64,000 bases of DNA from Cyclobacteriaceae bacterium. Its GTDB lineage: Bacteria > Bacteroidota > Bacteroidia > Cytophagales > Cyclobacteriaceae. Of the stretch, positions 20,853 to 58,100 are shown piece after piece (the first letter of the stretch is position 1; every line of letters begins with the position of its first letter). The notes under the pieces are model-generated. The model saw only the letters and a program-made list of their open reading frames with translations, did not search any database and was not told where the DNA came from. The position numbers and the translations under genes are program-made. The stretch is from NCBI GenBank assembly GCA_026129485.1, contig JAHCHY010000006.1:124001-188000 (forward strand). Reading direction: 5' to 3'.

Positions 20853-22161
20853 TGCTTAACTCAAGAAGGTTTAAAAATTTGTTCTTGTACTTGAAATCCA
20901 TATCGCTGTCCACTTGCACCAAACCGTTTTTGATTAAATGAGCGTTGATAAACGTTTTGTTTTCCAAATAGAGATAGCAAAGCAAATTGTTTTCACTATC
21001 ATGTTTTACGTTATCATATTTAAGAAAAACCCGTTTGCCCTTTGTTTTTTCAATCAGAAAAGAAGTGGCTTTCCCATTAATTTTCGGATTTTCTTTTATG
21101 CCGATAAGTTTTACGGTTAAGTCGTTGCTTAACCGAATTTTTTCAGGGCTGATTACTTCTTTGATTGTATAAAGCTCCTCGCGTTTGGTTGAACTGTTTT
21201 TATCTATCTTACTGCCAAACTGTAATTTTTTTATATCAATTTTTTTGTCAAGCACATGAGGGTCTTTGAAAATATAAGGGAGGCCTTGAATTTCTTTTTC
21301 AAAATCTGTTTTAGTTTTTTTCTGCTTCACAAATTCACAAGTCGTACCGCGCAAATCTTTTTGACCTGCCTTGCCGGCAGGCAGGTGAATTTCCAACTTG
21401 TCTTTAATGAATGGAATAAATTCAGGATTGATTTCGTACCCAACTGAATTTCTACCAAGATTTTTTGCTGCTAATGCAGTTGTTCCGCTCCCCGCAAAGG
21501 GGTCAAGAATTGTTTCTCCAACAAACGAAAACATTTTAATCAATCGCTTGGGCAATTCCTCCGGAAACATTGCGATATGTCCGTTTTGTCTTGCTCCCGC
21601 AAAATTCCAATGACCGGCAAAGTATGTATTCCATTCCTGGGCAGTCATTTTTGAAAGTTCTTTTTGTTCTTTTGTTGGTTTCGGGGCTTCTCCCAATTTT
21701 TTGAACACAAGAATAAATTCGTAATCTAATTTTAAAATGCCGTTTCTGGGATAAGGATAAGAACCCATTTGAACTCCGCCTCCTGTTGTATTGGAAGTTG
21801 TAACCTTTTGCCAAATGATTGCTCCCATGTAGTCAAACCCTATGTTCTCGCAGAATTTGATAATTTCTTCCCGAATAGGAATAACTTTGTACCGTCCGTA
21901 ATAAACCGAACGCGCAAATTGGTCGCCAATGTTTACGCACAATCGGCAACCGTTATGTAACGTGCGGTAGCACTCTTTCCAAACCAAATTCAGATTATTA
22001 ATGTAATTCTCGTAACTGTCGTGGAAACCGATTTGATTATCCGTTCCGTAGTCTTTGAGTTGCCAATAAGGAGGAGAAGTGATAGCCAAATGCACCGAAT
22101 TGTCGGGCAGTTCAGTCATCAGCCGGCTATCTCCGTTGATTATTTTGTGCCTAGTTCCCAA
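20842..22161 (-). CDS. Beta-class DNA methyltransferase with C-terminal SNase-like domain
   Basis: 439 aa from TTG 22161; the next ATG is at residue 15, too late. Residues 1-260 form an amino-methyltransferase in beta-class order: motif IV SPPYW (29-33) first, then motif I DPFAGSGTT (220-228). SPPY favours N4-cytosine, though N6-adenine is possible. Residues 261-266 (PAGKAG) come from a GC-rich palindrome in the DNA. Residues about 335-439 look like a staphylococcal-nuclease/thermonuclease fold (VKLIGIKENP, VFLKYDNVKHD, CYLYLENKTFINAHLIKNG). The usual catalytic Asp/Arg/Glu of active SNases are not where expected, so this domain is probably non-catalytic and may bind DNA or RNA. It overlaps the candidate nuclease gene and would protect self DNA. 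Confidence 0.85.
   Translation of the reverse strand: MGTRHKIINGDSRLMTELPDNSVHLAITSPPYWQLKDYGTDNQIGFHDSYENYINNLNLVWKECYRTLHNGCRLCVNIGDQFARSVYYGRYKVIPIREEIIKFCENIGFDYMGAIIWQKVTTSNTTGGGVQMGSYPYPRNGILKLDYEFILVFKKLGEAPKPTKEQKELSKMTAQEWNTYFAGHWNFAGARQNGHIAMFPEELPKRLIKMFSFVGETILDPFAGSGTTALAAKNLGRNSVGYEINPEFIPFIKDKLEIHLPAGKAGQKDLRGTTCEFVKQKKTKTDFEKEIQGLPYIFKDPHVLDKKIDIKKLQFGSKIDKNSSTKREELYTIKEVISPEKIRLSNDLTVKLIGIKENPKINGKATSFLIEKTKGKRVFLKYDNVKHDSENNLLCYLYLENKTFINAHLIKNGLVQVDSDMDFKYKNKFLNLLELSNGK
21365..21385. repeat. GC-rich palindrome inside the methyltransferase gene
   Basis: CCTGCC-T-TGCCGGCA-GGCAGG is an almost perfect palindrome with one unpaired T. It is translated in frame as the PAGKAG linker between the methylase and the SNase-like domain. 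It stands out from the AT-rich gene around it and looks like a small inserted repeat. Confidence 0.7.
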
Positions 22162-22186
22162 TTTCTTTCAATTTCACTATTTCATC

Positions 22187-22194
22187 CAAATTTA
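22187..22194 (-). promoter_or_regulatory. -7 element upstream of the methyltransferase
   Basis: On the minus strand this reads TAAATTTG, a perfect TAnnTTTG, 25 bp before the TTG start. A possible -33 TTG sits about 27 bp further upstream, slightly longer than usual. Confidence 0.45.
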
Positions 22195-22339
22195 GTCAAA
22201 AAACCGACTTTCTTAGATTGTCAATTTTCTTCTTGGTTGGGAATGACTTAGTTATTTTGAATTGGAAATTCAATCTATCATGGTTCGCCATTGCAAATGG
22301 CGAACAGGTTTGTTTAGATTCTTCTATAATTATATAAAC

Positions 22340-22455
22340 TTGAAACGTTATCGGTTTGGTCGTCATTTTTTCGCGAACTGCGTTGCGTACAATGTGAGCG
22401 CATATGCAGTGGTGGGTTTGGACGCGCAAAAAATGCAGCGAAACGGAATGTTTAG
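22340..22455. repeat. Long imperfect inverted repeat (attC-like or structured element)
   Basis: In the 805-bp gap between the methyltransferase and hrpB, arms CATTTTTTCGCG (22364-22375) and CGCGCAAAAAATG (22423-22435) pair with one bulge. Inner arms ACTGCGTTGCG and CGCATATGCAGT continue the stem, and looser outer arms around AAACGTTATCGGTTT and AAACGGAATGTTT extend it to about 115 bp. Stem-with-bulges geometry next to an accessory gene resembles integron attC sites, but the R-box consensus GTTRRRY is not met. Confidence 0.45.
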
Positions 22456-22528
22456 CACGACCTGCCAAAACTGTCCCACGTGACTAAACTTAATTTTGAA
22501 AGATAATACTTTTCGTTTACACTAAACC

Positions 22529-22562
22529 CGGCAATGACTTATAGCTTTTGTTGTAAGCCGGG
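22529..22562 (-). terminator. Possible hairpin behind the 84-aa gene
   Basis: CCCGGC and GCCGGG arms enclose an A/T-rich loop immediately downstream of the small minus-strand gene. The T-run is weak, so terminator function is tentative. Confidence 0.3.
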
Positions 22563-22580
22563 CGCATACACTCCTTCATT

Positions 22581-22835
22581 TCATGTCCAACTATATGTCA
22601 AGTGCAGGTTTTTCGCTGAACTTATTTCATCCGTCCTTTTCTTAAGTTCAATTAGATACTGGAACTTAATAAGTTGTCGCTTAAACCAGTTTCTCTCGGT
22701 ACTAAGACGCGCCTGACATTTGTCCTTTAGCTCTTGCTTTACTTTATTAATTCTCTTCTTAAACTCATCAGTCCGCTCCCAAGTATCCTTGCCTTTGTCG
22801 AACAGGTTATTTTGTTTATCAACCCCTATTTTCAT
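22581..22835 (-). CDS. Small hydrophilic protein of unknown function (84 aa)
   Basis: 84 aa, starting MKIGVDKQNNLFDKG. It is rich in Lys, Glu and Arg with likely helical or coiled-coil character (FKKRINKVKQELKDKCQARL, later LIELKKRTDEISSAKNLHL) and no membrane segment. Composition and codon pattern look coding, and there is no competing frame. It sits in the AT-rich accessory stretch upstream of the methyltransferase on the same strand. No family recognised. Confidence 0.45.
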   Translation of the reverse strand: MKIGVDKQNNLFDKGKDTWERTDEFKKRINKVKQELKDKCQARLSTERNWFKRQLIKFQYLIELKKRTDEISSAKNLHLTYSWT

Positions 22836-22966
22836 ATAATTTTGAATTTGGTCTTCATTGCGTATGGCTTACGACACCGAATATACACACCGGTACACAT
22901 ATTTCAGCTATACCGTGCCTGAAAAGGCGCATATATCTTTCGCTATAAGGCAGCTATATGCACGTT

Positions 22967-25477
22967 CTACCTCCTCCTCACCCCTCTTACCGCCTCGGCC
23001 GTCCACGGGTCTTCGGGCCAATGGTGTTTGGGATAGCGCATGCGCAACTCCTTGCGCACTTCGTGGTAGGTGGTTTGCCAGAAGCTTTTTAAGTCCTGCG
23101 TAACCTGCACGGGCTTGTAGCCGGGTGAGAGCAGGTGCAGTAAAATTTTTGTCCGGCCTTCATTTACGGCAGGTGTTTCCGGCAGGCCAAACATTTCCTG
23201 CAGGCGCACTTCCATTACAGGCGCGCGGCCATCGGCAAAATAACTGAGCTTAATTTGCGAACCGCTGGGCACACTTAATCGTGCAGGCGCGAGCTTATCT
23301 AATTCAGGTTGCAGATCCCACGGCAACAAGCCCGCGAGCATGTTCAGCAAATCAAGCTTTTGCAGTTCGGTGCGTTTGGTAATGTTGTTAAGGTAAGGTG
23401 TGAGCCACGCTTCGGCTGTAGCCAACAGGTTTTCGGTGGTTACATCGGGCCAGCCTTCGTCCGGGCGCCACGCGTGTAAACTCAGCACACGGTTTTGCCA
23501 TTCGGTGTGCGCATCATCCCAACCTAACAGCTTCAATCCTTCCTCGCGCAAAGCAGACAACAGCACGGCAATACGTTTGGCATCGGGTATTTGTGTAACC
23601 GGTTTAGCGGATAGCACCGTATTGCCGATTTTCTTTTCGAGCTGCGCCACTACCATACCGCGTGCAGCATCCCACTTTATAATTTCTGTTTCGGTTGCAC
23701 GATGTACCAGATCGGTTTCGTCTAAAGGTGCAGCCAGAAAAATTTTGCCTTCATGGCTGCCGGCATCGAGATGCGCAACGGCCAGCCAGCGTTCGCGTGC
23801 AAGCGCATCATGATCGGGCAGCTTCACTATACGTCCGTTGGCCAACTTGTAGCGTTCGCTATGTTTGTCCTGCTGCTGTGCAATGCGTTCGGGATACGCT
23901 TCCGCTATCAATCGCCCTGTTTCGGTATCAGGTGGAATGGTGTTATCCGCATTCAGCTTAAAAATCCTGCGCCAGTTGGAAGCCAGGCGTTCAATACGCT
24001 CCAGCACATTGCGGTCGGCATTTACACGCTCGCCTGCACGCCACTTGCGCAGAGCTTCCACCCGCAGGCTTAAATCGGCACCGGATTCTTTCGGCAGCGG
24101 ATCGCGTTCTTCGAGAATGGAGGCGATGTCGGTGGCGACCTCACCCCTATCCCCTCTCCAAAGGGAGAGGGGAACTGCTCCGGCCTTGTTTGCTGAATAA
24201 ATCGGAAATAACAACATGTGTGCGATGCGCGGATGTGTCGGTAATTTCAGCATCTCTTTTCCGCGCAGTGTGATCTTGTTTTCGTGTAACGCTTCGAGGT
24301 TGTGCAGCAGCTCACGCGCCTGGCTTACCGCACCCGGTGGTGGCGGTGTAATCCACGTAAGCTCACTCAGGTTGTTTACGCCCCAGTTGGCCAGCTCCAG
24401 CACGAGCGATGCCAAATCAGCTTCTAATATTTCCGGCTGGCGATTGGGCTGTAATGTATGATGGGTTGCCTCCGGCCATAACCGATAACACACACCGGGG
24501 CCCAAACGTGCTGCACGACCGGCACGCTGATCGGTTGCATCGCGCGTTACGCGCACGGTTTCCAGTCGCGTTAAGCCGCTGCGCGGATCAAATCGCGGCA
24601 CACGGGCATAACCACTGTCAATTACCGTAGTAATGCCTTCAATGGTTAAGGATGTTTCGGCAATAGAAGTGGCCAGCACAATTTTTCGCAAGCCTTGCGG
24701 ATGCGGCAATATGGCTTCCTGCTGCTTCTTAAAAGGCAGATCGCCAAAGAGCGGCACCACCCCGGAAATGTTTTCCGATTCCAGCAGTTGCTGCACCTGT
24801 TGTATCTCTCCCGCTCCGGGCAGAAACACAAGCATATCGCCCTGCTGTTCGTTTAATGCCTTGCGGATAACACGCGCTGCGTTTTGAGTTAAGCGTAAAT
24901 CCTTATCGGGAGTAATGTACTGATGCGTGATGGGGTATTGCCTGCCCATGCTGGTAAGAACAGGTGCGTTATTCAGTATGCCGGAAATTTTTTCTCCATC
25001 CAGCGTGGCCGACATGATGAGCAGCCGCAGGTCATCGCGCAGCAAGCTTTGTACCTGTAAGCATAACGCCAATGCAAGATCGGCCTGTAAGCTGCGTTCA
25101 TGAAATTCATCGAAGATCACAAGTCCCGCGTCCTCCAGCGTGCTGTCGGTTTGGATCATACGCGTGAGAATACCTTCGGTAACTACTTCGATACGTGTTT
25201 TAGCGCTCACCTTGTTTTCAAAGCGAACGCGATACCCTGCGGTTTCTCCCACTTCTTCATCCAGCAACTGCGCCATGCGCATGGCTACCGAGCGTGCGGC
25301 CAGCCGCCTCGGCTCAAGCATAATGATTTTTTTATCCCGAAGCCACGGCTCGTTTAACACATGCAACGGCAGCACCGTACTCTTACCTGCACCAGGTGGC
25401 GCCTGCAGGATCAGAATTTTATGTTGAGTGAACTGTTCTTTGAGCTGCGGAACAATTTCAAGCACGGGGTATTGCAT
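22967..25477 (-). CDS. hrpB: ATP-dependent helicase HrpB
   Basis: 836 aa, the usual length of HrpB (about 820) plus a small insert. It is a DEAH-box helicase: Walker A GAGKST at residues 29-34, DEFHER (motif II), SATLDG (motif III), then the helicase C-terminal motifs with DQRAGRAAR (motif VI). The HrpB-specific C-terminal domain follows. Around residues 430-445 the conserved region carries an extra KAGAVPLSLWRGDRGEV. Its DNA is a GC-rich palindrome, so a mini-repeat has been inserted in frame. The biological role of HrpB is poorly known; it is an RNA/DNA helicase of the cytoplasm. Confidence 0.93.
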   Translation of the reverse strand: MQYPVLEIVPQLKEQFTQHKILILQAPPGAGKSTVLPLHVLNEPWLRDKKIIMLEPRRLAARSVAMRMAQLLDEEVGETAGYRVRFENKVSAKTRIEVVTEGILTRMIQTDSTLEDAGLVIFDEFHERSLQADLALALCLQVQSLLRDDLRLLIMSATLDGEKISGILNNAPVLTSMGRQYPITHQYITPDKDLRLTQNAARVIRKALNEQQGDMLVFLPGAGEIQQVQQLLESENISGVVPLFGDLPFKKQQEAILPHPQGLRKIVLATSIAETSLTIEGITTVIDSGYARVPRFDPRSGLTRLETVRVTRDATDQRAGRAARLGPGVCYRLWPEATHHTLQPNRQPEILEADLASLVLELANWGVNNLSELTWITPPPPGAVSQARELLHNLEALHENKITLRGKEMLKLPTHPRIAHMLLFPIYSANKAGAVPLSLWRGDRGEVATDIASILEERDPLPKESGADLSLRVEALRKWRAGERVNADRNVLERIERLASNWRRIFKLNADNTIPPDTETGRLIAEAYPERIAQQQDKHSERYKLANGRIVKLPDHDALARERWLAVAHLDAGSHEGKIFLAAPLDETDLVHRATETEIIKWDAARGMVVAQLEKKIGNTVLSAKPVTQIPDAKRIAVLLSALREEGLKLLGWDDAHTEWQNRVLSLHAWRPDEGWPDVTTENLLATAEAWLTPYLNNITKRTELQKLDLLNMLAGLLPWDLQPELDKLAPARLSVPSGSQIKLSYFADGRAPVMEVRLQEMFGLPETPAVNEGRTKILLHLLSPGYKPVQVTQDLKSFWQTTYHEVRKELRMRYPKHHWPEDPWTAEAVRGVRRR
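24151..24172. repeat. Palindromic mini-repeat inside hrpB
   Basis: CCCCTCTCC and GGAGAGGGG arms around an AAAG loop form a strong hairpin. It translates in frame to the PLSLWRG insert, which interrupts an otherwise conserved segment of the helicase. Confidence 0.75.
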
Positions 25478-25514
25478 AGGTGCGAAGATAGCAGGTATTA
25501 GGTAAGACCTAAGT

Positions 25515-25603
25515 CAATAATCACAAATCACTGATCTATAATCGCCAATCAAGAAGAATTCAGGATTTGCGATTATAGACTGGTGATTAGCGATCAGTGA
25601 TTT
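25515..25603. repeat. AATCAC-word repeat unit, copy 1
   Basis: The left arm (25515-25550) is built of words AATAATCAC, AAATCAC and ATAATCGCC. The right arm (25564-25603) is made of the complementary words GATTTGCG, ATTATAGA, GTGATTAG and CAGTGATT. The unit could fold into one long hairpin. It is the first of three copies in 800 bp. Confidence 0.7.
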
Positions 25604-25636
25604 TAAGATCAGATAAACTATATATTGAAGGGTCTA

Positions 25637-25733
25637 AAGTCAATAATCGCAAATCAATAATCACTAATCGCCAATCATGAAAGCACCATTCAGGATTTGT
25701 GATTAGTGATTATAGATCAGTGATTGGTGATTT
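25637..25733. repeat. AATCAC-word repeat unit, copy 2
   Basis: Left arm 25637-25677 and right arm 25694-25733 are made of the same words as copy 1 in a different order. Copies 1 and 2 are joined by an A/T-rich spacer (AAGATCAGATAAACTATA...) that recurs after copy 3. Confidence 0.7.
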
Positions 25734-25755
25734 ACGAGAAACAGGCAACCGGCAA

Positions 25756-26160
25756 CTAAAGAATATCCACATGATACACATCCAGCTCGTTTCGCTTGAT
25801 GCCGGAAACAAAGAAGCCGCCTGCCTGCGGAATATCTTCTACGAGATCGAACACTTTACAATCTTTAGGCAAGGCTGAAAAAATAAGCAGGAAAGAAAAA
25901 ACCATTTTACCTTGTATAAGCGTCCATTGCGGAGCGTATGAAATATTTTCGGCATGAATCAATTCGCTGCGTGAGCCGGTGGCTTTATCAATCAGAAAAG
26001 TAGATCGCCACACCCGGATCAGCATGTCATCCAGCTCGTTTTTATAATAACAATGCACATACACGTGCTGATCTTCCAGTGTCCACGAATCGATGGAAGT
26101 AAGCACATCGGTCTCCACTTTGGGCTTTACGGGAACAGGAATTTCAATTGAACCGCTCAT
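25756..26160 (-). CDS. Conserved hypothetical protein (134 aa)
   Basis: 134 aa from ATG 26160 (MSGSIEIPVPVKP); an upstream start at 26175 lies within the repeat unit and is less likely. It is soluble with mixed alpha/beta character. Notable runs are SWTLEDQHVYVHCYYKN and a C-terminal VEDIPQAGGFFVSGIKRNE. There is no signal peptide. I do not recognise a named family. It is enclosed on both sides by copies of the AATCAC-word repeat, and its stop codon falls inside a GGCAACCGGCAAC word. Confidence 0.6.
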   Translation of the reverse strand: MSGSIEIPVPVKPKVETDVLTSIDSWTLEDQHVYVHCYYKNELDDMLIRVWRSTFLIDKATGSRSELIHAENISYAPQWTLIQGKMVFSFLLIFSALPKDCKVFDLVEDIPQAGGFFVSGIKRNELDVYHVDIL

Positions 26161-26162
26161 CA

Positions 26163-26256
26163 AGTCAGTAATCACAAATCAATAATCTATAATCGCAAAT
26201 CTAAAAGGCACTGTTTGGATTTGTGATTAGTGACTGGTGATTAGCGATCTGTGATT
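26163..26256. repeat. AATCAC-word repeat unit, copy 3
   Basis: Left arm 26163-26201 and right arm 26217-26256, followed by the same spacer (AAGATCAGAGAAACTATA) as behind copy 1. A partial left arm (26288-26316) follows. Confidence 0.7.
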
Positions 26257-26348
26257 TTAAGATCAGAGAAACTATACATTGAAGACCTAAAGTCAATAAT
26301 CGTTAATCACAAATCAAAGCATTAAATATCAAGTAACCGGCAACTCCT

Positions 26349-26846
26349 TCACTCCTCACCGGATTTACGCATTCTGTTATTATACGCCCCGGATTTCACT
26401 TTATTCATCAGGTAAAGCGCACGTTCAATCCTCAAGTCCACATTTTTGGTACTATTAATATAGTGTACCAGGCTGCGCTGCAAGCCCACGGTAAGCTTAC
26501 TCCAAAGCTTGGCGCCCTCATCATCCTGCGCCAGCACCGCTTCCATTTCTTCAGGCAGCTCCAGCTTATCCGGGTCAACTACCTGGAAGCTTACTTTCAC
26601 TTTACCGCCCGGCTTAACCTTGGCCGACCTTCGCATGGCCTGGCTGATGCTTAAATACCGCGCCCCGTTTTTCTTAAACTGGATGGCAAGGTTAAACGCC
26701 ACTTCGTTCAGCTTGCCTTCTACCCGTACGCGACCTTTCGGTAGCTTTTTCAGGATGTCGGCCGGTATCTCCACTACGGCAGATACCAGCGTATCCTCGT
26801 ATTCCACCAGGCGGGCTTCAAAAGAAAAACGTTGCTTTTTTACCAC
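26349..26846 (-). CDS. DUF1905 / YdeI-OmpD-associated family protein
   Basis: 165 aa. The N-terminal DUF1905 beta-barrel (about residues 5-95) has FEARLVEYEDTLVSAVVEIP and KGRVRVEGKLNEVAF. The C-terminal YdeI/OmdA-type helical domain has LTVGLQRSLVHYINSTKN and RIERALYLMNKVKSG. It is cytoplasmic. Members are linked loosely to resistance to peptides or bacteriocins, but the molecular role is unproven. Its divergent neighbour, a MaoC gene, starts 59 bp away. Confidence 0.85.
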   Translation of the reverse strand: MVKKQRFSFEARLVEYEDTLVSAVVEIPADILKKLPKGRVRVEGKLNEVAFNLAIQFKKNGARYLSISQAMRRSAKVKPGGKVKVSFQVVDPDKLELPEEMEAVLAQDDEGAKLWSKLTVGLQRSLVHYINSTKNVDLRIERALYLMNKVKSGAYNNRMRKSGEE

Positions 26847-26904
26847 AATATGAATTATGTTACCAAATCTTTAATTTCGCTCGCTTTACAAACCTACTAA
26901 ATCA

Positions 26905-27366
26905 ATGCCTCTCCTCATCAGCAGCCACGAAGAATTTGAAGCCTATAAAGGAAAAGAGCTTGGCGTATCGGAATACCTGAAAATTTCGCAGGAGCAAATC
27001 AACCTGTTTGCCGATGCCACGCTCGACCATCAATGGATACATACCGACCCGAAACGGGCCGAAACGGAATCACAATTTAAAAGCACCATTGCACACGGCT
27101 ATCTTACACTTTCATTGGTGCCGCACCTGTGGGATCAGATTGCCGAATTCCGCAATGTGAAAATGATGATCAACTATGGCATCGAAAAATTCAAATTCAA
27201 TCAGCCGGTTACCGTTAACAGCGAAGTACGCCTGCGGGCCAAACTACATTCCATTGCCAACCTGCGCGGCATTACCAAGTTTGAAGTAGAGGTTACGCTG
27301 GAGATAAAAGATAATCCCAAGCCTGCGTTTAACGGGTTGCTGGTGTTTTTGTATCACTTTCATTGA
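26905..27366 (+). CDS. MaoC-family (R)-hydratase/dehydratase
   Basis: 153 aa, a single hot-dog domain. It shows the catalytic hydratase signature: FADATLDHQWIHTDP with Asp/His, then STIAHGYLTLSL. It probably hydrates an enoyl-CoA or acts in acyl-CoA metabolism. It is a single gene; a -7-like TAATTTCG lies at 26872-26879. The stop is followed at once by a CAGTTGGCAGTT word repeat. Confidence 0.9.
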   Translation: MPLLISSHEEFEAYKGKELGVSEYLKISQEQINLFADATLDHQWIHTDPKRAETESQFKSTIAHGYLTLSLVPHLWDQIAEFRNVKMMINYGIEKFKFNQPVTVNSEVRLRAKLHSIANLRGITKFEVEVTLEIKDNPKPAFNGLLVFLYHFH

Positions 27367-27411
27367 AATCAGTTGGCAGTTAACAATTGACAACAGGCAG
27401 TTGACAATTAT
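27367..27411. repeat. GTTGACA-word repeat
   Basis: Words CAGTTGGCAGTT, AACAATTGACAA and GGCAGTTGACAATT follow one another right after the MaoC stop. The same word family recurs inside icmF. Confidence 0.55.
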
Positions 27412-27549
27412 TAGCAGACAAAGAAGTTAATTGTCGGGAACAAGCAAACCAGTTGTCCGTCATTTTAGAACAACCGGAATTAGCAGGAATATTCTCACAA
27501 GAAAGGTCACGTAACTTCCAAACTTGGCCCTTACAACAATACAAGTACA

Positions 27550-28119
27550 ATGAACCTCTACATAAAAAGAATCAAAGACTTACATAGCAGGTTAGATACT
27601 GAAATCCTTACAGCATTAGAGGAAGCATTTACAGATAAGAGATTTGAAAAAGGCTCATACCTGCTAAGGCCCGGACAAATATGCACATCGCACTTACTTA
27701 TAAAAGAAGGCATAGCGAGAAAATTTTATATTCATCAAGACAGAGAAATCACGACAGAAATATACTTTCACGATGACGTAGCTATATCGTTGGACAGTTA
27801 CATTATGCAAAATCCGGGAGATATATATATTGAAGCGTTGACGGAATTAGAAGTTACGGTGATTGATTACAGCCGGTTTTATTCTATGAAAAGCAAATAC
27901 CCGGAAGTGATGATGCTCGACAAAATGTTTATAGAATATTACGCAGTGTGGTTTGAACAACAGCTTAGGGCCTTTCAAACCCTCAATGCAACACAGCGAT
28001 ATTTGAAATTGTTAGAAAAAGAGCCGCAGGTTGCCCAACTCCTGCCTGTTACGATTGTGGCTTCTTACCTGAATATCTCTTTGGAAACCTTGTCCAGGAT
28101 CAGGTCTAAAGTTTCATAA
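27550..28119 (+). CDS. Crp/Fnr-family transcription regulator
   Basis: 189 aa. The N-terminal cyclic-nucleotide-binding-like barrel (about residues 10-120) contains RPGQICTSHLLIKEGIARKF. The C-terminal helix-turn-helix (about 160-189) has VASYLNISLETLSRIRSKV. The ligand-contacting Arg/Glu of true CRP are not evident, as is usual for this Bacteroidetes subgroup. It probably regulates the oxidoreductase gene that begins 75 bp downstream on the same strand. Base composition of both genes is more AT-rich than the neighbours. Confidence 0.88.
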   Translation: MNLYIKRIKDLHSRLDTEILTALEEAFTDKRFEKGSYLLRPGQICTSHLLIKEGIARKFYIHQDREITTEIYFHDDVAISLDSYIMQNPGDIYIEALTELEVTVIDYSRFYSMKSKYPEVMMLDKMFIEYYAVWFEQQLRAFQTLNATQRYLKLLEKEPQVAQLLPVTIVASYLNISLETLSRIRSKVS

Positions 28120-28194
28120 GTATTTTTTGACTTGCGTCAAATTTCCGGATTGTCGGGGAATATAGCTTTGGGCTTGTATAAAACAAGTGTCCCG

Positions 28195-29190
28195 ATGAAA
28201 GCAGTTATATTCACAAAGTTTGGGAATCCTGAAGTATTGCAATTGGCTGAAATTGAAAAGCCGGTTCCTAAAAGCAATGAAGTGTTGGTGAAAATATATG
28301 CGACTTCTGTTACCGTAGAAGACCCCAAGATGAGAAGCTTTAATCATTCGCCCCTGTTAAAATTGCCCGTTGGACTGATGTATGGCTTCAGGAAACCCAA
28401 AAAGCCCGTGCTTGGTATGGAATTTTCCGGGATAGTTGAATCCATTGGCGATAAAGTCAAAAGCTACATACCGGGCGACCGGGTATTTGGATATACCGGT
28501 ATTGGCTTTGGCGCGTATGCCGAGTTCAAGTGTATGCCCGAAAATAGTATCATGCACATCAAGCCGGAAAATTTATCGTTTGCTCAATCAGCAAGTATGG
28601 TCAATGGTTTCCTTACAGCTTTAGCCTACTTAAAAAAGAAGGGCAAAGTAAAAACAGGGGACCGTGTGCTTGTATATGGAGCATCAGGCTCAGTAGGAAC
28701 GGCTGCCGTTCAGTTGGCGAAATACTTTGATGCCCATGTTACCGGAGTTTGCAGCACAAGAAGTATCGACCTGGTAAAATCAATCGGGGCAGACGATGTA
28801 ATTGACTACACCAAAGAAGATTTTACCGGAAGAAATGAAAAGTTTGATATCATGTTTGATACTGTCGGTAAAACATCCATGAAAGAGTGTTTGAAGTTGC
28901 TCAAACCCAATGGAAAATATTTGTTGACTGAATTTGGCATTTCGCATATCCTTGCGGCAATTTATACTTCCCTTTTCAGAAGCAAAAAAGTAATGGTTAC
29001 GGCTTCAAATATGTATTGGGAAAAAGAGGGTTTAATATTTTTAAAGGAGCTTGCCGAAAAGAGGCATTTTAAACCTGTACTTGACAGAAGTTTTCGGTTA
29101 GATGAAATTGTGGAAGCCCATAAATATGTGGAAACCGGGCATAAAGTTGGAAATGTGGCTGTCCTGGTTCAGCAAGATAATTTGACATAA
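28195..29190 (+). CDS. MDR-family NAD(P)-dependent oxidoreductase (quinone reductase-like)
   Basis: 331 aa from ATG 28195. The medium-chain dehydrogenase layout is clear: an N-terminal GroES-like domain (KAVIFTKFGNPEVLQL, GMEFSGIVESIGDKV) and a Rossmann domain with GASGSVGTAAVQLAKYF. The structural zinc cysteines are missing, so it belongs to the zinc-free quinone oxidoreductase/enoyl reductase branch. The likely role is detoxification of quinones or enones using NADPH. It lies directly behind a Crp-family regulator. Confidence 0.88.
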   Translation: MKAVIFTKFGNPEVLQLAEIEKPVPKSNEVLVKIYATSVTVEDPKMRSFNHSPLLKLPVGLMYGFRKPKKPVLGMEFSGIVESIGDKVKSYIPGDRVFGYTGIGFGAYAEFKCMPENSIMHIKPENLSFAQSASMVNGFLTALAYLKKKGKVKTGDRVLVYGASGSVGTAAVQLAKYFDAHVTGVCSTRSIDLVKSIGADDVIDYTKEDFTGRNEKFDIMFDTVGKTSMKECLKLLKPNGKYLLTEFGISHILAAIYTSLFRSKKVMVTASNMYWEKEGLIFLKELAEKRHFKPVLDRSFRLDEIVEAHKYVETGHKVGNVAVLVQQDNLT

Positions 29191-29344
29191 AAAACGAACG
29201 CACAACAGGATTTGGTGTCAGGCAGGGTGAAACGGCTTCGTATGAATTCAATCGTTGCGGAACTAAGCTTGAACTATAGTTCTCCGATTAGGCAGCAGTG
29301 TCAAAATTCCGGTCTTAACGCATGCTGCAACCGGGAACCGGCAA

Positions 29345-31166: not shown

Positions 31167-31169
31167 TCC

Positions 31170-49829: not shown

Positions 49830-50044
49830 ATCTCCACCACGATCCAGCGGCCATTTTCATCTTTCGCATAACGCAGTCCGTTGCTCATCTCGTATACAGG
49901 CTGTCCCTCCACCTCTGTTACCTTCTTTTCGTACACGCGAATTCCATTATTCTCACGCGTTAGGAAATTAATCAATGCGGGAAGTGTGGGCGAAATATCC
50001 GACAAGCTTAGCTCATCCCCTTCTCTTACAAATGCCTGGCTCAT
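49826..50044 (-). CDS. Small conserved hypothetical protein (72 aa)
   Basis: 72 aa, starting MSQAFVREGDELSLSDISPT. It has a soluble, mixed fold with a repeated RYAKDENGRWIVVEI-type end. The start resembles a short conserved Bacteroidetes protein of the MSRAFVKEDD type with no assigned role. It is translationally coupled to the DUF952 gene. No membrane segment or signal is seen. Confidence 0.7.
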   Translation of the reverse strand: MSQAFVREGDELSLSDISPTLPALINFLTRENNGIRVYEKKVTEVEGQPVYEMSNGLRYAKDENGRWIVVEI

Positions 50045-50128
50045 GGTTTGTTCTGTTAAAACACGAAAGTAACGTATTGAGAGGAATTATCAATCCGGTT
50101 TACGGACATTACACTTCGTGAAAATCCT

Positions 50129-50159
50129 TTTGCTGCTCCTTCCAAAATCCGTACCTTTT
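50129..50159 (+). promoter_or_regulatory. Promoter of the M16 peptidase operon
   Basis: TTTG at 50129-50132, a 19-bp spacer and TACCTTTT at 50152-50159 match the Bacteroidetes -33/-7 consensus with one mismatch. Confidence 0.6.
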
Positions 50160-50185
50160 AGGTTCAAAAAATCCGCTATCATCTT

Positions 50186-51553
50186 ATGAAGCATTCATTA
50201 ACCAAACTGGCCGGAACTATGCTTTTGCTGGTAATCATAGCTCCGTTGCAGGCACAGGAGCTGACTGTGCCTTATGAACAATTTACATTACCCAATGGTC
50301 TTACGGTTATTCTGCACCAGGATAAAACGGTGCCTATGGTGAGCGTAAATGTGTGGTACCATGTGGGGTCGGGCAGTGAAAAGCCGGGGCGTACAGGCTT
50401 TGCCCATTTATTTGAGCACATTCTTTTTGAAGGGTCGGAACATGTGCCGGAAGGAAAATTTGATGAATGGCTTGAGGCGGCCGGTGCAAATAATAATGGA
50501 TCGACTACCGAAGACCGCACGAACTACTATGAAGACCTGCCGGGCAATGCCCTTGACCTGGCCTTGTTCCTCGAATCTGATCGCATGGGCTTTTTATTAA
50601 AGCATCTTTCGGAAGCAACCGTAAACGGCCAGCGTGATGTGGTAAAAAATGAACGCAGGCAATCGTACGAAAACCGTCCTTACGGAAAAGCATGGCTGGA
50701 GTTACCCGCCCTGCTGTATCCTAAAGATCATCCGTATTCGTGGACGGTAATCGGATCGATGGAAGATCTTTCCGCGGCCAGCTACCAGGATGTAGTGGAT
50801 TTCTTCACCTTATACTATGCTCCCGGAAATGCTTCGCTATCCATTGCCGGTGATATTGATTTAAAAGAAGCCCGTCAGAAAGTAGAGAAATGGTTCTCGG
50901 ATGTTCCGGCCGGCAAAAAAGTACCGAAAGTAAATCCGCCTGCTGCTGAGCTTACCGAAGAAAAACGGGTTGTGCTGGAAGATAAAGTTCAGCTCCCGCG
51001 CCTGATGATGGTGTGGCTGACACCCGCCAACTTTACGCCCGGCAATGCTGAAACAGATCTGCTGGCCGACTTGCTGGCAGGCGGAAAGAACTCACGCCTT
51101 TACCAGAAGCTGGTGTACGAGCTGCAAATTGCCCAATCGGTAAGCGCCTACCAGGATTCTAAAAAATTCGCATCTGAATTTATCATTACAGCCACCGCGC
51201 GACCCGGTATAACACTCTCGCAGCTTGAAGAAGTTATCCAGGAAGAGCTTAACAAGCTTAAAGCCGAACATCCGCAGGAACGTGAATTGCAACGCATCAA
51301 AAATCAATATGAATCGGGCTTTTACCGGCAGATGGAGCGGGCCGGTGGTTTCAGCGGAAAAGCCAATCAGCTTAACCAATACCTCTACTACACCGGCAAC
51401 CCGGATTACTTTAACGAAGACCTGCAACGGTACAAGGCGATTGGAACAAGTGATATTTCCGCCACTGCGCTTCAGTACCTGAAAGATGATGCACGCGTGG
51501 TGATGAGCATTGTGCCTGAAGGCAAAACGGATCTCGCGGCCAAAAAGAATTAA
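50186..51553 (+). CDS. M16 zinc metallopeptidase (active subunit)
   Basis: 455 aa with a signal peptide ending near LQAQ. The inverted zinc motif HLFEH (HxxEH) is at about residue 73 and the distal Glu lies in the following helix, so the site is intact. A second M16 domain half follows. It is a periplasmic peptidase of the pitrilysin/processing-peptidase type. The next gene encodes a homologue without this motif, the usual heterodimer of active and inactive subunits. Confidence 0.93.
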   Translation: MKHSLTKLAGTMLLLVIIAPLQAQELTVPYEQFTLPNGLTVILHQDKTVPMVSVNVWYHVGSGSEKPGRTGFAHLFEHILFEGSEHVPEGKFDEWLEAAGANNNGSTTEDRTNYYEDLPGNALDLALFLESDRMGFLLKHLSEATVNGQRDVVKNERRQSYENRPYGKAWLELPALLYPKDHPYSWTVIGSMEDLSAASYQDVVDFFTLYYAPGNASLSIAGDIDLKEARQKVEKWFSDVPAGKKVPKVNPPAAELTEEKRVVLEDKVQLPRLMMVWLTPANFTPGNAETDLLADLLAGGKNSRLYQKLVYELQIAQSVSAYQDSKKFASEFIITATARPGITLSQLEEVIQEELNKLKAEHPQERELQRIKNQYESGFYRQMERAGGFSGKANQLNQYLYYTGNPDYFNEDLQRYKAIGTSDISATALQYLKDDARVVMSIVPEGKTDLAAKKN

Positions 51554-51570
51554 CAACAAAAGACATTGGT

Positions 51571-53001
51571 ATGAAAAACTATATTACAATCGCATTCCTG
51601 CTCTTTACAGCCTCAGCTTTTGCGCAGACACCGGATCGCTCGGCACCGCCCGCGCTTGCAAAAGCACGTAACCTGCAGCTTCCACCCATTCAAAAATTTA
51701 CGCTCTCCAACGGGTTGAATGTTTGGCTGGTGGAAAAGCACACAGTACCACTGGTGCAGGTTAACCTCCTGGTCCAAACCGGGGCATTTGATGACCCGCA
51801 GGGAAAAGAAGGGTTAAGCAGCCTTGCATTCGATATGCTGGATGAAGGTGCCGGAACCTATACGGCACTGCAATTGGCCGATGAGATAGAATTTCTGGGC
51901 GCTACCATCAGTACCGGCAGCGGAAGCTTCAGCTCGCAAATCAGTTGTGCTGCACCTGTTTCAAAGCTGGATGCCGTCTTAAAGCTTTTCAGCGATATTA
52001 CGCTTCGCCCGGCCTTTGCAGATACTGAGCTGGAAAGACTCCGCAAGCTCCGGCTCAACAGCATCCTGCAGAGTTACGATGAAGCTACCCTGATCGCGCA
52101 ACGCGCCTACAATAAGCTATTGTTCGGGGTACAAATGCCATACGGAAAATTTCCGACCGAACAATCCGTAAGATCATATACCAAAGAAGACCTGCTTTCA
52201 TTTCATAAAAGCAATTTCGTTACGGGCAACAGCACATTAATTGTGGTGGGTGATGTTTCAAAAGAATCCATTACACCATTGCTTGAAAAGCACCTGGCAA
52301 GCTACCCAAAAGGTGAAGCTGCGAAAAAAGATCGCCCTGTTGCCAAAGCCATACAAGGCAGAACAATTTACTTAGTGGACAAGCCCGGTGCCGCACAATC
52401 CGTAATTCGCATTGGCCGTATCGGCACAACCCGCAACGATCCGGATTTCAGCAACATTATGGTGATGAACACCATCCTGGGAGGATCGTTTGCTTCGCGG
52501 CTGAATACCAACCTGCGGGAAGAGCACGGCTATTCTTATGGAGCAGGTTCTAACTTTGGATTCTGGTCGGTACCCGGCCCCTTTACGGCCAGCTCATCCG
52601 TTCAAACCGATGTTACCGGCCCCGCTTTAGGAGAATTTTTTGTGGAGTTTAACAAAATGCTCAAGCCCATACCAGATGCAGATCTTACCCGTGGAAAAAA
52701 TTATGAAGCGTTGGGTTATGCGGCAAACTTTGAAACAAACGGAAGCGTGGCCGCGCAATTGGCGGATATGATTTCCAACCGGTTGCCCGACAATTATTTC
52801 AATACCTATGTAGATAAAACGCTTGCGGTAACCAAAAAGGGAGTGGAAGCCGCAGCCAAAAAGTACATAACACCCAAAAGCATGCTGGTGGTGATTGTAG
52901 GCGACCGGGCTAAAGTGGAAGAAGGCATTAAGAAGCTCAATCTCGGGAAAATTACTTTCTTAACCATTGAAGATGTGCTGGGTAAGAAACCAGAGCTCTA
53001 A
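51571..53001 (+). CDS. M16 peptidase-like protein (inactive partner)
   Basis: 476 aa with a signal peptide (TIAFLLFTASAFAQ). It has the M16 fold (FTLSNGLNVWLVEKHTVPLVQVNLLV) but the zinc motif is replaced by SLAFD in GLSSLAFDMLDEGAGT, so the protein cannot bind the catalytic zinc. It keeps the C-terminal FASRLNTNLREEHGYSYGAGS glycine-rich substrate region. It probably forms the non-catalytic subunit of a heterodimer with the product of the preceding gene. Confidence 0.92.
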   Translation: MKNYITIAFLLFTASAFAQTPDRSAPPALAKARNLQLPPIQKFTLSNGLNVWLVEKHTVPLVQVNLLVQTGAFDDPQGKEGLSSLAFDMLDEGAGTYTALQLADEIEFLGATISTGSGSFSSQISCAAPVSKLDAVLKLFSDITLRPAFADTELERLRKLRLNSILQSYDEATLIAQRAYNKLLFGVQMPYGKFPTEQSVRSYTKEDLLSFHKSNFVTGNSTLIVVGDVSKESITPLLEKHLASYPKGEAAKKDRPVAKAIQGRTIYLVDKPGAAQSVIRIGRIGTTRNDPDFSNIMVMNTILGGSFASRLNTNLREEHGYSYGAGSNFGFWSVPGPFTASSSVQTDVTGPALGEFFVEFNKMLKPIPDADLTRGKNYEALGYAANFETNGSVAAQLADMISNRLPDNYFNTYVDKTLAVTKKGVEAAAKKYITPKSMLVVIVGDRAKVEEGIKKLNLGKITFLTIEDVLGKKPEL

Positions 53002-53022
53002 CCGGTAAAAGATGTTACAAAA

Positions 53023-53060
53023 AAACTGGCAGCTCTGATGTTTATCCGGGCTGCCGGTTT
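53023..53060 (+). terminator. Terminator of the M16 operon
   Basis: AAACTGGCAGC (53023-53033) and GCTGCCGGTTT (53050-53060) form an 11-bp stem with one mismatch (or wobble) followed by a T-rich tail. It is the only hairpin between the M16 operon and the convergent kinase gene. Confidence 0.6.
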
Positions 53061-53087
53061 TGTTCTTATCTGTTTTAAAGGCAGCGC

Positions 53088-55067
53088 CTAATCATTAATA
53101 CCATTATAGCTTCTGATATAAGATTCCATCCAGCTAATGGCATCTTCCAGCTCGCTGAACAATTTTAATTCAATACCCAGCGATTCTGTTTTCGCTATCA
53201 TGCGCTGAAAATATTCTTTACGTATAGGGTCGGCCAGCCCAACTCCTGCAATTCTTTTTAATCCGTGCCTGACCGCTTCGGGTATTACTGTCCCTATCAG
53301 CCAATGTTGCTCCTCGTCCGGCACCACGCCCTGTAACCTGAAGTCGGTAATGCACCCGGGAGAGTTATAGGTTTTTAAAGAATGCAGTACAGCCTGAAAA
53401 GCTTTTCTATACTCTATAGCAGTAATATTTCTCCGCCAGAGGATAACCGTATTATTAATATCTGCATCAAAATAAATCTGGGCGGCCTCGCTTTCAAAAA
53501 TGATCTGCTTGCTTACGTTCTGCGGGTGAGGCAAGGTAACGATAAACGTAGTGCCCCGGTTAATCTCGCTTTCAATCGAAATTGAACCGCCAAGCGTATC
53601 CACCTGTGTTTTTACGAGGTACAATCCTAACCCTTTGCCATCCACATGAGAATGAAACCTGCGGTAAAGCTTGAATACATTATCCTTCTGGGTTCCCAGG
53701 TTAATACCAAGACCATTGTCGCTAACGCTTAGCTGCACAGCATGATCGGATTGCCGGGTGGTTGAAATTTCGATGCACAGCTCACGTTCAGGGTTACGAT
53801 ACTTGATGGCATTGCTCACCAGGTTGTACAGGATGCTTTGAATCATTGCCCTGATCGAATAAATGACCGGGGCCTGCTCAAAATTGGTTTGAATTTTATA
53901 CCCCGGCCTGATCTGATCCTGGAGAACAAATAATGTTTTCTGCCATTCTTCCTGGAACTGAATTTTTTCCCGTACGCGGTAAAGGTCATTCCGCAGGTCA
54001 ATAATCTGGTTAAGATCTTTCAACACTTCATCCAGCTCCCTTCCCGACCTTTGAATCATCAGGGCGATTTCATTCTTATCATGATCCTGCTGAGATCGTT
54101 TGAACAAATCGGTAAGCCCCAGCAAACGGGCTACGGGCGCCCTGAGATTATGCGAAACCGTATATGAAAACTGGCGCAGCTCATTATTATGGCGAATCAA
54201 CTCTTCATTCGTCCACGTTAAAGCATCTGTCTTCTGCTCCACCAGCTTGGCCAGTTCTTTATTCGATTCTACCAGCTTTTCCTGCTGCTGGCTGATTAAT
54301 AAGTTAGCTTCTGCAATTAACTCCCTGCTTTCCTGAATTTCTTTTTTCTGCCGGATCAGCTCCTCACTTTGCTGAGCCATCGATTCATTCAGGCTCATCA
54401 GCTCTTCATTCTTAGCCAGCAATAACCGGTTACTTGAATTCAGCTCCTGAATAGATTTTTTAACCTGTACCTCTGCACGACCGGTTATTATTTTCAAAAC
54501 AATTACACCAAACGATAATACAAGAAAAGATATGAGGGCTATATAATTAATATAATAATAAGAGCGTGCCGTAAATCCCCGCTGAAAATACCCCAGGCCC
54601 AGTGCATTGTGAACGGGGTCAAACAAAAGCAGGCATACAAGCGTGGAAACCATGCAAGCCGTGATCTTCCACTTCTCTTCAATTACAAATGCGATTGCGG
54701 GCAAAATGGTCGTAACCAGGATGATAAACCGGGCGTCAAAATAGGTGATGTATGATTGTTCGGGCACTTTAAGCTTTCCATACAATGAAATGCCGAACGT
54801 AACATATACCGGAACCAAGCAAAACAAAAGGCGGCCAACATTATAGTTAACCCTGTTGATTACGGGTATGATTCCGAAAATTACGGATACAAGAATTATG
54901 AAGATTGATGTTTTTGTCCAGCCAAACAACGAGAAGAGAACACCGAAAAGAATAAAGGCCAGAAAGGCAAAAATCGAAGAAAGGATATTGGTAATAAATA
55001 CAGATTGCCTCAGCGCATCAGGAATTTTCCCGGAAGGCGCATAGGTATTAAATTGGCTCAGCATCAA
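53088..55067 (-). CDS. Sensor histidine kinase with C-terminal STAS-like extension
   Basis: 659 aa. The N-terminus has about six transmembrane helices (residues about 25-195). A long coiled coil follows (about 195-290), then the HisKA box with SHNLRAP and His306. The HATPase domain has the N box NLVSNAIKYRNPE, G1 DNGLGIN and G2 GKGLGLYLVK. After it, residues about 530-659 form a separate alpha/beta segment (IYFDADINNTVILWRRNITAIEYRKAF, then a helix before WMESYI). This resembles the STAS/SpoIIAA-like domain seen alone in other Bacteroidetes proteins. No response regulator gene is adjacent; the signal is unknown. Confidence 0.88.
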   Translation of the reverse strand: MMLSQFNTYAPSGKIPDALRQSVFITNILSSIFAFLAFILFGVLFSLFGWTKTSIFIILVSVIFGIIPVINRVNYNVGRLLFCLVPVYVTFGISLYGKLKVPEQSYITYFDARFIILVTTILPAIAFVIEEKWKITACMVSTLVCLLLFDPVHNALGLGYFQRGFTARSYYYINYIALISFLVLSFGVIVLKIITGRAEVQVKKSIQELNSSNRLLLAKNEELMSLNESMAQQSEELIRQKKEIQESRELIAEANLLISQQQEKLVESNKELAKLVEQKTDALTWTNEELIRHNNELRQFSYTVSHNLRAPVARLLGLTDLFKRSQQDHDKNEIALMIQRSGRELDEVLKDLNQIIDLRNDLYRVREKIQFQEEWQKTLFVLQDQIRPGYKIQTNFEQAPVIYSIRAMIQSILYNLVSNAIKYRNPERELCIEISTTRQSDHAVQLSVSDNGLGINLGTQKDNVFKLYRRFHSHVDGKGLGLYLVKTQVDTLGGSISIESEINRGTTFIVTLPHPQNVSKQIIFESEAAQIYFDADINNTVILWRRNITAIEYRKAFQAVLHSLKTYNSPGCITDFRLQGVVPDEEQHWLIGTVIPEAVRHGLKRIAGVGLADPIRKEYFQRMIAKTESLGIELKLFSELEDAISWMESYIRSYNGIND

Positions 55068-55149
55068 GTACTTGAATGATCTGCAAAATTAAGAGAAACC
55101 ATTAAGTCTCAAACACCTACCGCCTGTTAGCTTAATCTTATTTTATCAG

Positions 55150-55157
55150 TACTTTTA
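55150..55157 (+). promoter_or_regulatory. -7 element of icmF
   Basis: TACTTTTA matches TAnnTTTG with one mismatch, 20 bp before the start codon of icmF. Confidence 0.4.
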
Positions 55158-55177
55158 CGCGATTAATCGGTTAAGCA

Positions 55178-58100
55178 ATGAGCGCTGAAACGAAGACTGC
55201 CCAAACTCCTCAAGCCAGGTTAGCCGGTCATGCGGCACCACAACCCTATAAGCCCCAAAACAAAGTACGTATTGTTACCGCTGCCAGCTTGTTTGATGGG
55301 CACGATGCAGCCATCAACATCATGCGCAGGATTATCCAGGCAACAGGTGTAGAGGTAATTCACCTCGGCCACGACCGCAGTGTGGAAGAAGTAGTGAACA
55401 CTGCCATACAGGAAGATGCGCAGGCCATCGCCATAACAAGCTATCAGGGCGGCCATAATGAATACTTTAAATACATGTACGACCTGCTTCAGCAGAAAGA
55501 AGCCGGGCACATTAAAATCTTTGGCGGTGGCGGTGGTGTAATCCTCCCGGAAGAAATTAAAGAGCTCATGGATTATGGCATCACCAAGATCTATTCGCCC
55601 GATGATGGCCGCGCGTTAGGGTTGCAGGGAATGATTAATGACCTGGTAGAAAAGAGTGATTTTCCAACCGGCCGGACAGTTGACAGTCAACGGTTGACTG
55701 TTGACAACCATTTAGAGATAGCACAATTAATATCGGCAGCAGAGAATTATTATGACGATCATAAGCAGGTTTTTGATGCCATCAACAAACAGGCAACTCA
55801 ATCCAAAGCCCCGGTATTGGGTATAACCGGTACGGGCGGTGCGGGAAAATCTTCAATGGTGGATGAGCTTGTAAGGCGTTTCCTCATCGACTTCAAAGAT
55901 CCCGACAATAACGGGACAGGCAAAAATATCGGGATTGTTTCAGTCGATCCGTCCAAACGCAAAACAGGCGGTGCGTTGCTGGGCGACCGCATCCGCATGA
56001 ATGCGATCAACAACAAACGCGTGTACATGCGTTCGCTGGCCACGCGGCAAAGCAACCTCGCACTTTCGGCTTATGTAAAAGAAGCCATCAATATATTGAA
56101 GGCTGCGGGGTTCGATCTTATCATTTTAGAAACATCAGGCATTGGCCAGAGCGATACCGAAATTCTCGACCACAGCGATGTATCGCTTTATGTGATGACA
56201 CCCGAATACGGTGCCGCTACCCAGCTCGAAAAAATCGACATGCTGGATTTTGCCGATGTAATTGCGCTGAACAAGTTTGATAAACGGGGCGGATTAGATG
56301 CTTTGCGCGATGTAAAAAAGCAATATCAGCGCAACCATCAGCTGTTCGATCAAAAGCCCGAAGATATGCCGGTGTTCGGGACTATCGCTTCGCAGTTTAA
56401 TGATCCGGGCACCAATCGTTTGTATAAGCACATCATTGAAAAAATTGTGTCGAAAACCGGGGCAGACCTAACATCATCGTTTGAGATCACACAGGAAATG
56501 TCGGAGAAGGTGTTTGTTATCCCTCCGCACCGCACCCGTTACCTCAGCGAAATTTCAGAAAACAACCGCAGCTATGACGAATGGGTAAATGAGCAAGCCG
56601 CTGTTGCCGAAAAGCTGTTCGCCATTTCCAAAACACTTGAATCATTTACCGGTCAGCCTGATATTAAAAAAGTATTGCAGGCCGAATTCGATCGTATAAA
56701 GCTGAATCTCGATCCTAAAAACTGGCGGGTTATTGAAGGCTGGAGCGAGCGCGTAAAGCAATACAGGGAGCCGGTTTTTAAATTTAAGGTGCGTGATAAG
56801 GAAATCGGTATTCAAACCCACAGCGAGTCGCTGTCGCATTTGCAAATACCGAAAGTAGCGTTGCCAAAATATTCCAACTGGGGCGATTTATTAAAATGGA
56901 ACTTACAGGAAAACGTTCCGGGTGAGTTTCCCTACACGGCAGGCATTTATCCGTTCAAGCGTGAAGGCGAAGATCCTACCCGCATGTTTGCCGGGGAAGG
57001 CGGCCCCGAACGCACCAACCGAAGGTTTCATTATGTCAGCATTGCCATGCCGGCCAAGCGTTTGTCCACGGCTTTCGATTCGGTAACCCTGTATGGAAAC
57101 GATCCGGATTACCGCCCGGATATTTATGGCAAGATAGGCAACTCCGGTGTAAGCATCTGTTGTTTGGACGATGCCAAGAAATTATACAGCGGGTTCAACT
57201 TAGCCGATCCGAAAACATCGGTGTCCATGACCATCAACGGCCCGGCCCCTATGCTGCTCGGCTATTTTATGAATGCCGCGATTGACCAGCAGTGTGAGAT
57301 ATACATTAAGAAGAACGGACTTGAAGAAGAAGTTAGAGAAAAGATTAATTCTATTTATAAAAATGTCCGGGGTCCACGGTCAACAGTGGACTGTGAACGT
57401 CCTTCGTATCAGGGCAGCCTGCCCAAAGGCAATGATGGTTTAGGATTGATGTTGTTAGGCGTAACTGGCGACCAGGTATTACCCAAAGATGTCTATGAAA
57501 AAATCAAGGCCGAAACATTATCGCAGGTGCGCGGCACGGTGCAGGCCGATATTCTGAAAGAAGACCAGGCACAGAACACCTGCATTTTCTCTACCGAGTT
57601 TGCCCTGCGCCTGATGGGCGATGTGCAGCAATATTTTATCGATAAAAACGTACGGAATTTTTATTCCGTATCCATTTCGGGATATCATATTGCCGAAGCG
57701 GGCGCTAACCCGGTTACACAGTTGGCGTTTACACTGGCCAACGGTTTCACTTACGTGGAATATTATTTGAGCCGCGGAATGGACATCAACGACTTTGCTC
57801 CTAACCTGTCGTTCTTCTTCAGCAACGGCATCGATCCGGAATATTCAGTAATCGGGCGCGTGGCGCGCAGAATATGGGCCAAGGCCATGAAGAAAAAATA
57901 TGGCGCCAATGCCCGCAGCCAGATGCTGAAATACCACATTCAAACATCGGGACGTTCGTTGCACGCGCAGGAAATTGACTTTAACGACATCCGCACCACG
58001 TTACAGGCGCTTTACGCGATTTATGACAACTGTAACTCGCTGCACACCAATGCGTATGACGAAGCCATTACCACACCCACCGAAGAAAGCGTGCGCAGGG

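Follow-up and report, generated by a model that had tools for sequence, protein, structure and literature searches.

Short palindromes translated in frame in conserved genes of a Cyclobacteriaceae-like bacterium, and hairpin-framed DUF559 units as their candidate source

How do short palindromes come to be translated as extra peptides inside conserved genes? The question is raised by a 64,000-nucleotide stretch of bacterial DNA (hereafter the window; positions 124001-188000 of contig C37 in genome G000, an assembly of 4.08 Mb in 40 contigs, 98% complete), in which a first-pass annotation had noted hairpin-forming repeats read as peptides in a DNA methylase gene, in hrpB and in icmF. By icmF, the nearest named relative is Chryseotalea sanaruensis (88%; records of the genome itself were possibly left out of this comparison), and since this gene is nearest to C. 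sanaruensis and to Cyclobacteriaceae metagenome-assembled genomes, the source would be an uncultivated member of the Bacteroidota from that group. We favor the reading, with a rough probability of 0.55, that the inserts arose as copies of short palindromic mini-elements of several families, that the CCTCTCC family among them consists of solo ends of mobile or homing units carrying a DUF559 domain, and that DUF559 is the candidate mover. The features of the window on which the question turns are the following (coordinates of the window, strand, description).

20842..22161, minus strand: gene of an N6/N4 DNA methylase with a C-terminal SNase-like match (gene call, Pfam)
21364..21386, minus strand: CCTGCC-family hairpin in the methylase gene, 8-bp arms, 23 nt
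21364-21381, minus strand: peptide PAGKAG in the methylase
22967..25477, minus strand: hrpB (gene call, homologues, Pfam)
24139..24172, minus strand: CCTCTCC hairpin with GGGGTGAGG tail inside hrpB, 34 nt
24152-24172, minus strand: peptide PLSLWRG in hrpB
55178..58630, plus strand: icmF, fused isobutyryl-CoA mutase (gene call, homologues, Pfam, structure 4xc6)
55676-55708, plus strand: first icmF stretch, peptide of 11 residues
55679..55705, plus strand: GTNNACN heptad array in the first icmF stretch, no net length change
57371-57406, plus strand: second icmF stretch, peptide of 12 residues that includes GPRSTVDCE
57372..57398, plus strand: GTNNACN heptad array translated as part of GPRSTVDCE, adding about 9 residues net

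All four peptides lie where the first-pass annotation had placed them. Homologues of hrpB were located in 26 of 39 genomes, and the site between its anchors spans 34-53 residues in 5 of 23 rows from the genus and 18-27 in the other 18 (this count omits three rows that were empty, one duplicate, and two from outgroups). Three kinds of insert share this one place: the CCTCTCC hairpin with its tail in the window, a related yet different insert in G019, and longer ones in G009, G013, and G023, of which that of G009 contains a palindrome beginning with CGTC. Judged by these alignments, the hrpB insert is real, lineage-specific, in frame, and palindromic, and so, on the same kind of comparison, is the GPRSTVDCE stretch of icmF (homologues in 37 of the 39 genomes). 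This second icmF site holds 26-35 residues in 4 of 21 genus rows and 18-21 in 17, the long rows carrying GTNNACN heptads in the window and G001, and CCTCTCC elements in G008 and G011. The methylase was found in 15 of the 39 genomes, with close homologues in two alone, both outside the genus; these lack PAGKAG, whose hairpin directly follows the methylase domain, and are 5 and 7 residues shorter at that point, so that PAGKAG is probably a real lineage-specific in-frame palindromic insert as well.

The first icmF stretch was rejected as an insert, despite DNA that consists of four GTNNACN heptads (an array that looks decayed in relatives). Its segment counts 27 residues in 12 of the 21 genus rows, the window included, and 28-29 in the remaining 9; at the aligned position the solved IcmF structure 4xc6 has a linker that is two residues longer. 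The proposal that palindromes are read as extra peptides thus stood for hrpB, for GPRSTVDCE and probably for the methylase, and fell for the first icmF stretch. An AlphaFold model of icmF was weak (mean predicted local distance difference test score, pLDDT, 59.9; predicted template modelling score 0.44), with residues 167-177 as coil and 731-739 below a pLDDT of 50, and nothing further rests on it.

Hairpins are abundant in the window as a whole: 15 perfect ones (arms of at least 8, loop of 2-8, perfect pairing) were counted vs. 2-7 in eight first-order Markov controls, and three of the four insert sites pointed out earlier fall among them. Among the orthologues of window genes, 23 gap blocks of at least four residues were seen, by eye mostly termini, broken frames, or a gene that is only 43% alike in G019; only the hrpB and icmF blocks hold repeat families. 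Contig C37 (217 kb) was also set against 245 kb of G009; synteny was lost outside the window, and nothing reliable was gained. When repeated 14-mers were counted in 464 kb of the source genome, an array of clustered regularly interspaced short palindromic repeats (CRISPR) alone came up, so the repeat families are low-copy and varied rather than exact high-copy words; exact seven-base periodic runs were scarce in this 464-kb sample (two). The idea that the elements are unusually stop-free in six frames was rejected, since they did no better than shuffles.

The source genome carries at least three repeat families, and the earlier estimate of at least three unrelated repeat types was borne out by the CCTGCC, CCTCTCC, and GTNNACN families, all found in frame in conserved genes. 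The elements are 21-36 nt long, those of the window ending in GGGGTGAGG, GGCAGGT, or heptads, and every count in this genome stands against a control of zero. The 21-nt CCTGCC palindrome (one mismatch allowed) occurs at 15 places, with an identical 21-mer at five, and its length preserves the frame. Nine of the 14 places that were read are in frame within seven genes, namely those of the methylase, serine hydroxymethyltransferase (glyA), an E1 dehydrogenase (two places), thrS, glycine dehydrogenase (gcvP), kynureninase (two places), and leuS; the others comprise one place at an N-terminus, one intergenic place, and three in frames without the full palindrome. Four places are net inserts of 21 nt. 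Relative to solved structures, the net insert is seven residues in glyA, thrS, and the second kynureninase site, seven in two pieces at the first E1 place, four in gcvP, and about two at the first kynureninase site, while at the leuS place G000, G011, and G013 have 29 residues and 14 further rows from the genus 20-27.

The CCTCTCC hairpin with its GGGGTGAGG tail is present in 15 copies. Four are in frame within genes (E1, hrpB, a gene resembling acetylornithine carbamoyltransferase, and a DUF559-amidohydrolase fusion), the carbamoyltransferase-like product having 11 residues more than the structure 1js1, and the remaining copies are intergenic, close to starts, or at gene ends. In G009, in-frame copies were found in uvrA, an RND efflux gene, hsdM, E1 (at the place shared with the source genome), and at a third place in icmF. 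Two CCTCTCC hairpins (L206 and L209) share a similar longer context with no notable covering gene, and are possibly another repeat or RNA. Four consecutive GTNNACN heptads gave five matches at four places, of which three are genic (two in icmF, one in fmt, the latter with no net length change); elsewhere in a search of 29 genomes the control pattern matched once in G013 and 28 times in G026, and exceeded the real pattern in one genome. The icmF, hrpB, and leuS loops hold differing repeat families across related species, which argues for recent or continuing activity, as the first-pass annotation had supposed.

Could local replication slippage and template switching have created the palindromes and heptads in tolerant loops, with no mobile element at all? 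Heptads that leave the length unchanged, at the first icmF site and in fmt, would fit such an origin, and so would the AT-rich heptads that fill a leuS loop, described below, in G000, G007, G009, and G013. An identical 21-mer at five separate places does not fit it, nor does the CCTCTCC element at the second icmF site, which differs at one of 30 bases between G008 and G011, two species that have closer relatives without the element (G012, which pairs with G011 as its sister in the leuS tree, has none at this site). We therefore hold slippage to be improbable as the source of the inserts; it is possible that it explains part of the picture, chiefly the heptads, and the GTNNACN heptads may have an origin different from that of the other families.

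What, then, could carry such elements? In five of 17 genus members (G001, G008, G011, G014, and G017) leuS carries within its frame a DUF559 domain (PF04480; Pfam identification run on the G008 copy) between two hairpins, with outward tails that resemble CCTCACCCC and GGGGTGAGG, and in the 12 other genus rows this site is a loop of 10-17 residues. Both the anatomy of the unit and its in-frame placement were observed directly. By eye, filled vs. empty leuS and icmF sites look like replacements of part of the loop, with no clear target-site duplication. The frame is open through the host gene and no intein families were among the Pfam matches, in a survey with no search aimed at introns or inteins. 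Elsewhere in the leuS alignment (columns 945-1185), 78-90 divergent residues were seen in G000 and seven other genus members, where the others have a conserved LeuRS segment of 28-30 residues.

DUF559 is present in 16 of the 29 genomes searched and in 222 of 395 sampled Bacteroidota genomes. The hosts identified by Pfam include LeuRS, IleRS, MetH, HsdR, a type ISP enzyme, a GATase_5 protein, a methylase-like protein, and an amidohydrolase, and among the DUF559 places listed 37 of 150 are in frames of at least 800 residues. For the domain tree described below, the hosts of L413, L419, L423, L425, L434, and L435 were assigned by eye from sequence. The single copy of the source genome is fused in frame to an amidohydrolase, near whose start there is no separate ATG. 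At L224 and L232, DUF559 stands between a frame resembling formylglutamate amidohydrolase and an amidohydrolase.

The connection between such units and the hrpB insert is seen best in G009, where, as in G006, a DUF559 frame directly adjoins the 3' end of hrpB: the hairpin end of this G009 unit matches the hrpB element of the window at 29 of 34 bases, the best match among 13 loci compared. Hairpins are concentrated around DUF559. Within 300 bp on either side of 44 loci (9 of 53 without full flanks were excluded) 67 hairpins were counted, vs. 6 at a control distance of 1000-1300 bp; 24 of the 44 loci have hairpins on both sides, vs. none in the control, and in 20 of these 24 the two sides share the same stem, a matching that was likewise directly observed. 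The stem sequences vary between genomes. Other stems, among them CCCCCTTT/AAAGGGGG and TCCCCTTA/TAAGGGGA, frame free-standing DUF559 genes of other Bacteroidota (L420, L421, L422, L426, L430).

In a tree from which 2 of the 53 loci were excluded for want of a domain hit, DUF559 domains follow the host gene and not the taxon in their clustering: one supported branch unites metH copies (five, from three families) with the ileS copy and a further one, and a second branch consists of hsdR copies (three, likewise from three families). In the leuS tree (computed without G010, G015, G018, G030, and G034) the five DUF559 carriers are scattered, and its well-supported branches require four changes, a number not below that of 137 of 500 shuffles. 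When the five DUF559 domains from leuS were analyzed with three leuS outgroups, an approximately unbiased (AU) test rejected four host-like topologies (p < 0.0001, log-likelihood differences of 63-64), the host groupings behind these topologies having moderate bootstrap values of 80-84 only; both the host-gene grouping and this rejection are direct observations. Nonsynonymous differences per site (pN, 0.23-0.36) were below synonymous ones (pS, 0.78-0.98) in all ten pairs, and the domain has therefore been under purifying selection.

A different assignment of roles would make DUF559 a passenger, the palindromes being recombination or insertion sites of another enzyme, with small cassettes, many of them nuclease genes, gathering between matched palindromes. 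This arrangement would suit the 6 of 37 palindrome-rich genomes that have no DUF559 match, as well as other palindrome families without any associated gene, and it is possible that passenger cassettes explain parts of the picture. We nonetheless regard it as unlikely, because matched hairpins of differing stems at 20 of 24 two-sided loci, together with the grouping of DUF559 by host gene, are better explained by a mover (Y1 transposases were the sole other enzyme sought).

That enzyme leads to the most conventional candidate, ordinary repetitive extragenic palindromic (REP) elements moved by a Y1 transposase, the REP-associated tyrosine transposase (RAYT). A hairpin with a tail on one side is as expected for REP elements, Y1_Tnp was found in 22 of the 29 genomes searched, and copy number correlated weakly with the number of Y1 genes (Spearman 0.41, p = 0.08). 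The source genome, however, has 15 CCTCTCC copies and zero matches to Y1_Tnp (PF01797), and the gene that the hairpins frame is DUF559, which makes this explanation very improbable. Copy number is associated with DUF559 in the genus (19 genomes, p = 0.001), and across the phylum DUF559 is present in 31 of 37 genomes with at least four palindrome copies vs. 191 of 358 (p = 0.0004).

Several points weigh against DUF559 as the mover. Both of these association tests ignore relatedness, the six palindrome-rich genomes (at least four copies) that have no DUF559 match include one with 32 copies, and G007 has DUF559 yet zero strict palindrome copies. Hairpins are missing on at least one side of 20 of the 44 DUF559 loci, the sole DUF559 copy of the source genome is not adjacent to the window inserts, and no link of the CCTGCC family or the heptads to DUF559 was found. 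At the leuS site there are two DUF559 lineages, which ancient paralogues followed by losses might explain, and with synonymous divergence saturated the purifying selection may be past. Movement itself was never observed; we infer both that DUF559 catalyzes the movement and that the solo hairpins derive from full units.

With DUF559 as the mover, the process may be pictured as follows. A full unit would consist of a CCTCACCCC tail, a hairpin, a DUF559 frame of about 110 codons, a second hairpin, and a GGGGTGAGG tail, and the hrpB insert would be a solo end of the CCTCTCC type. DUF559, a PD-(D/E)XK Vsr-like nuclease, would nick or cut DNA at the target or at the foot of a hairpin, and repair would then copy the whole unit, or one end alone, into the break. 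Such copies would survive where the surface loop they enter is tolerant and the frame stays open, so that the same leuS, icmF, and hrpB loops would gather different elements in different species. In this reading several mini-element families spread through the genome and are translated wherever they are in frame, with DUF559 proposed as the enzyme for the CCTCTCC type. Extended to the phylum, the proposal is that DUF559 proteins move widespread hairpin-ended elements of Bacteroidota into conserved genes, in frame and without splicing, whole copies acting as site-specific homing units and end-only copies as the seeds of coding palindromes, i.e., a REP-like system with a PD-(D/E)XK nuclease in place of an HUH enzyme; to this wider version we give even odds.

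How does such a system compare with those already described? PMC2229807 cites a description of in-frame palindromes in Rickettsia from 2000, and the likeness to Rickettsia palindromic elements (RPE) suggested in the first-pass annotation holds in the way the elements work, in a Bacteroidota genome whose nearest named relative is Chryseotalea: in both, palindromic repeats stand out as in-frame inserts when conserved genes are compared with their homologues, with others intergenic, as PMC2229807 reports for Rickettsia and Wolbachia. The RPE are, according to the same paper, 105-146 bp long, whereas the elements of the window's genome have 21-36 nt and thus fall outside the RPE length range; in addition, one of the present families looks like what frames a nuclease gene, and the host is Cyclobacteriaceae-like. 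PMC3733652 assigns a Rickettsia RPE to the CGTC repeats, which according to that paper apparently have no dedicated transposase, and the CGTC-starting palindrome in the G009 hrpB insert resembles the CGTC repeats reported there for Bacteroidetes and RPE. REP elements and REPtrons with RAYT, as outlined in that paper, share with our elements hairpins of 20-40 bp tagged at one end, repeats that frame an enzyme gene, and some genic copies. Here, too, inverted hairpins frame an enzyme gene, but this gene is DUF559 in place of a Y1 transposase, and the elements carry a GGGGTGAGG tail; those of the window lack an end tag of the GTAG or CGTC type, a CGTC start being seen in the G009 hrpB insert alone.

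Homing endonuclease genes offer a third comparison, PD-(D/E)XK and EDxHD being two of six families named in PMC6083498. As with these genes, a small nuclease frame sits in conserved genes, is patchy among close relatives, occupies the same site in distant taxa, and has a tree unlike that of its host, all of which was found at the leuS site. The nuclease seems to differ from them in being an extra domain in the host frame, framed by matched hairpins, with no intron or intein seen (none was specifically searched for). The GTNNACN heptads share their seven-base period with the TAACTGA heptamer direct repeats that PMC4679880 describes from Cyanobacteria, Beggiatoaceae, and some Bacteroidetes, and differ from them in their word, in mixed orientation, and in being translated inside genes. 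VsrA, a DUF559 protein of Caulobacter, was linked to the SOS response and placed in the PD-(D/E)XK superfamily in PMC12907096.

Coding palindromes are thus already known, and what looks new is their link to a nuclease unit that is itself in frame in conserved genes; among the titles listed in our literature search, none describes DUF559 together with palindromes. With matched palindromes around a nuclease that is in frame in essential enzymes, and with ends that resemble the solo palindromes, what moves coding palindromes becomes a question open to direct test. A role is also suggested for DUF559, a domain widespread in the sampled Bacteroidota, and core enzymes such as aminoacyl-tRNA synthetases come into view as places where mobile domains land.

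Two further repeat arrays were noted. The CRISPR array lies at 6742-10660 of L129 (contig C1 of G000) and has 52 copies of the repeat core at a spacing of about 77 nt. In the window, inverted arrays of AATCNNN/GATTNNN heptads at 25508-25733 and 26159-26316 flank a conserved 139-aa gene, with 68-nt copies that are 91% alike, and similar arrays are found in stretches of some relatives and once more in the sample of the source genome.

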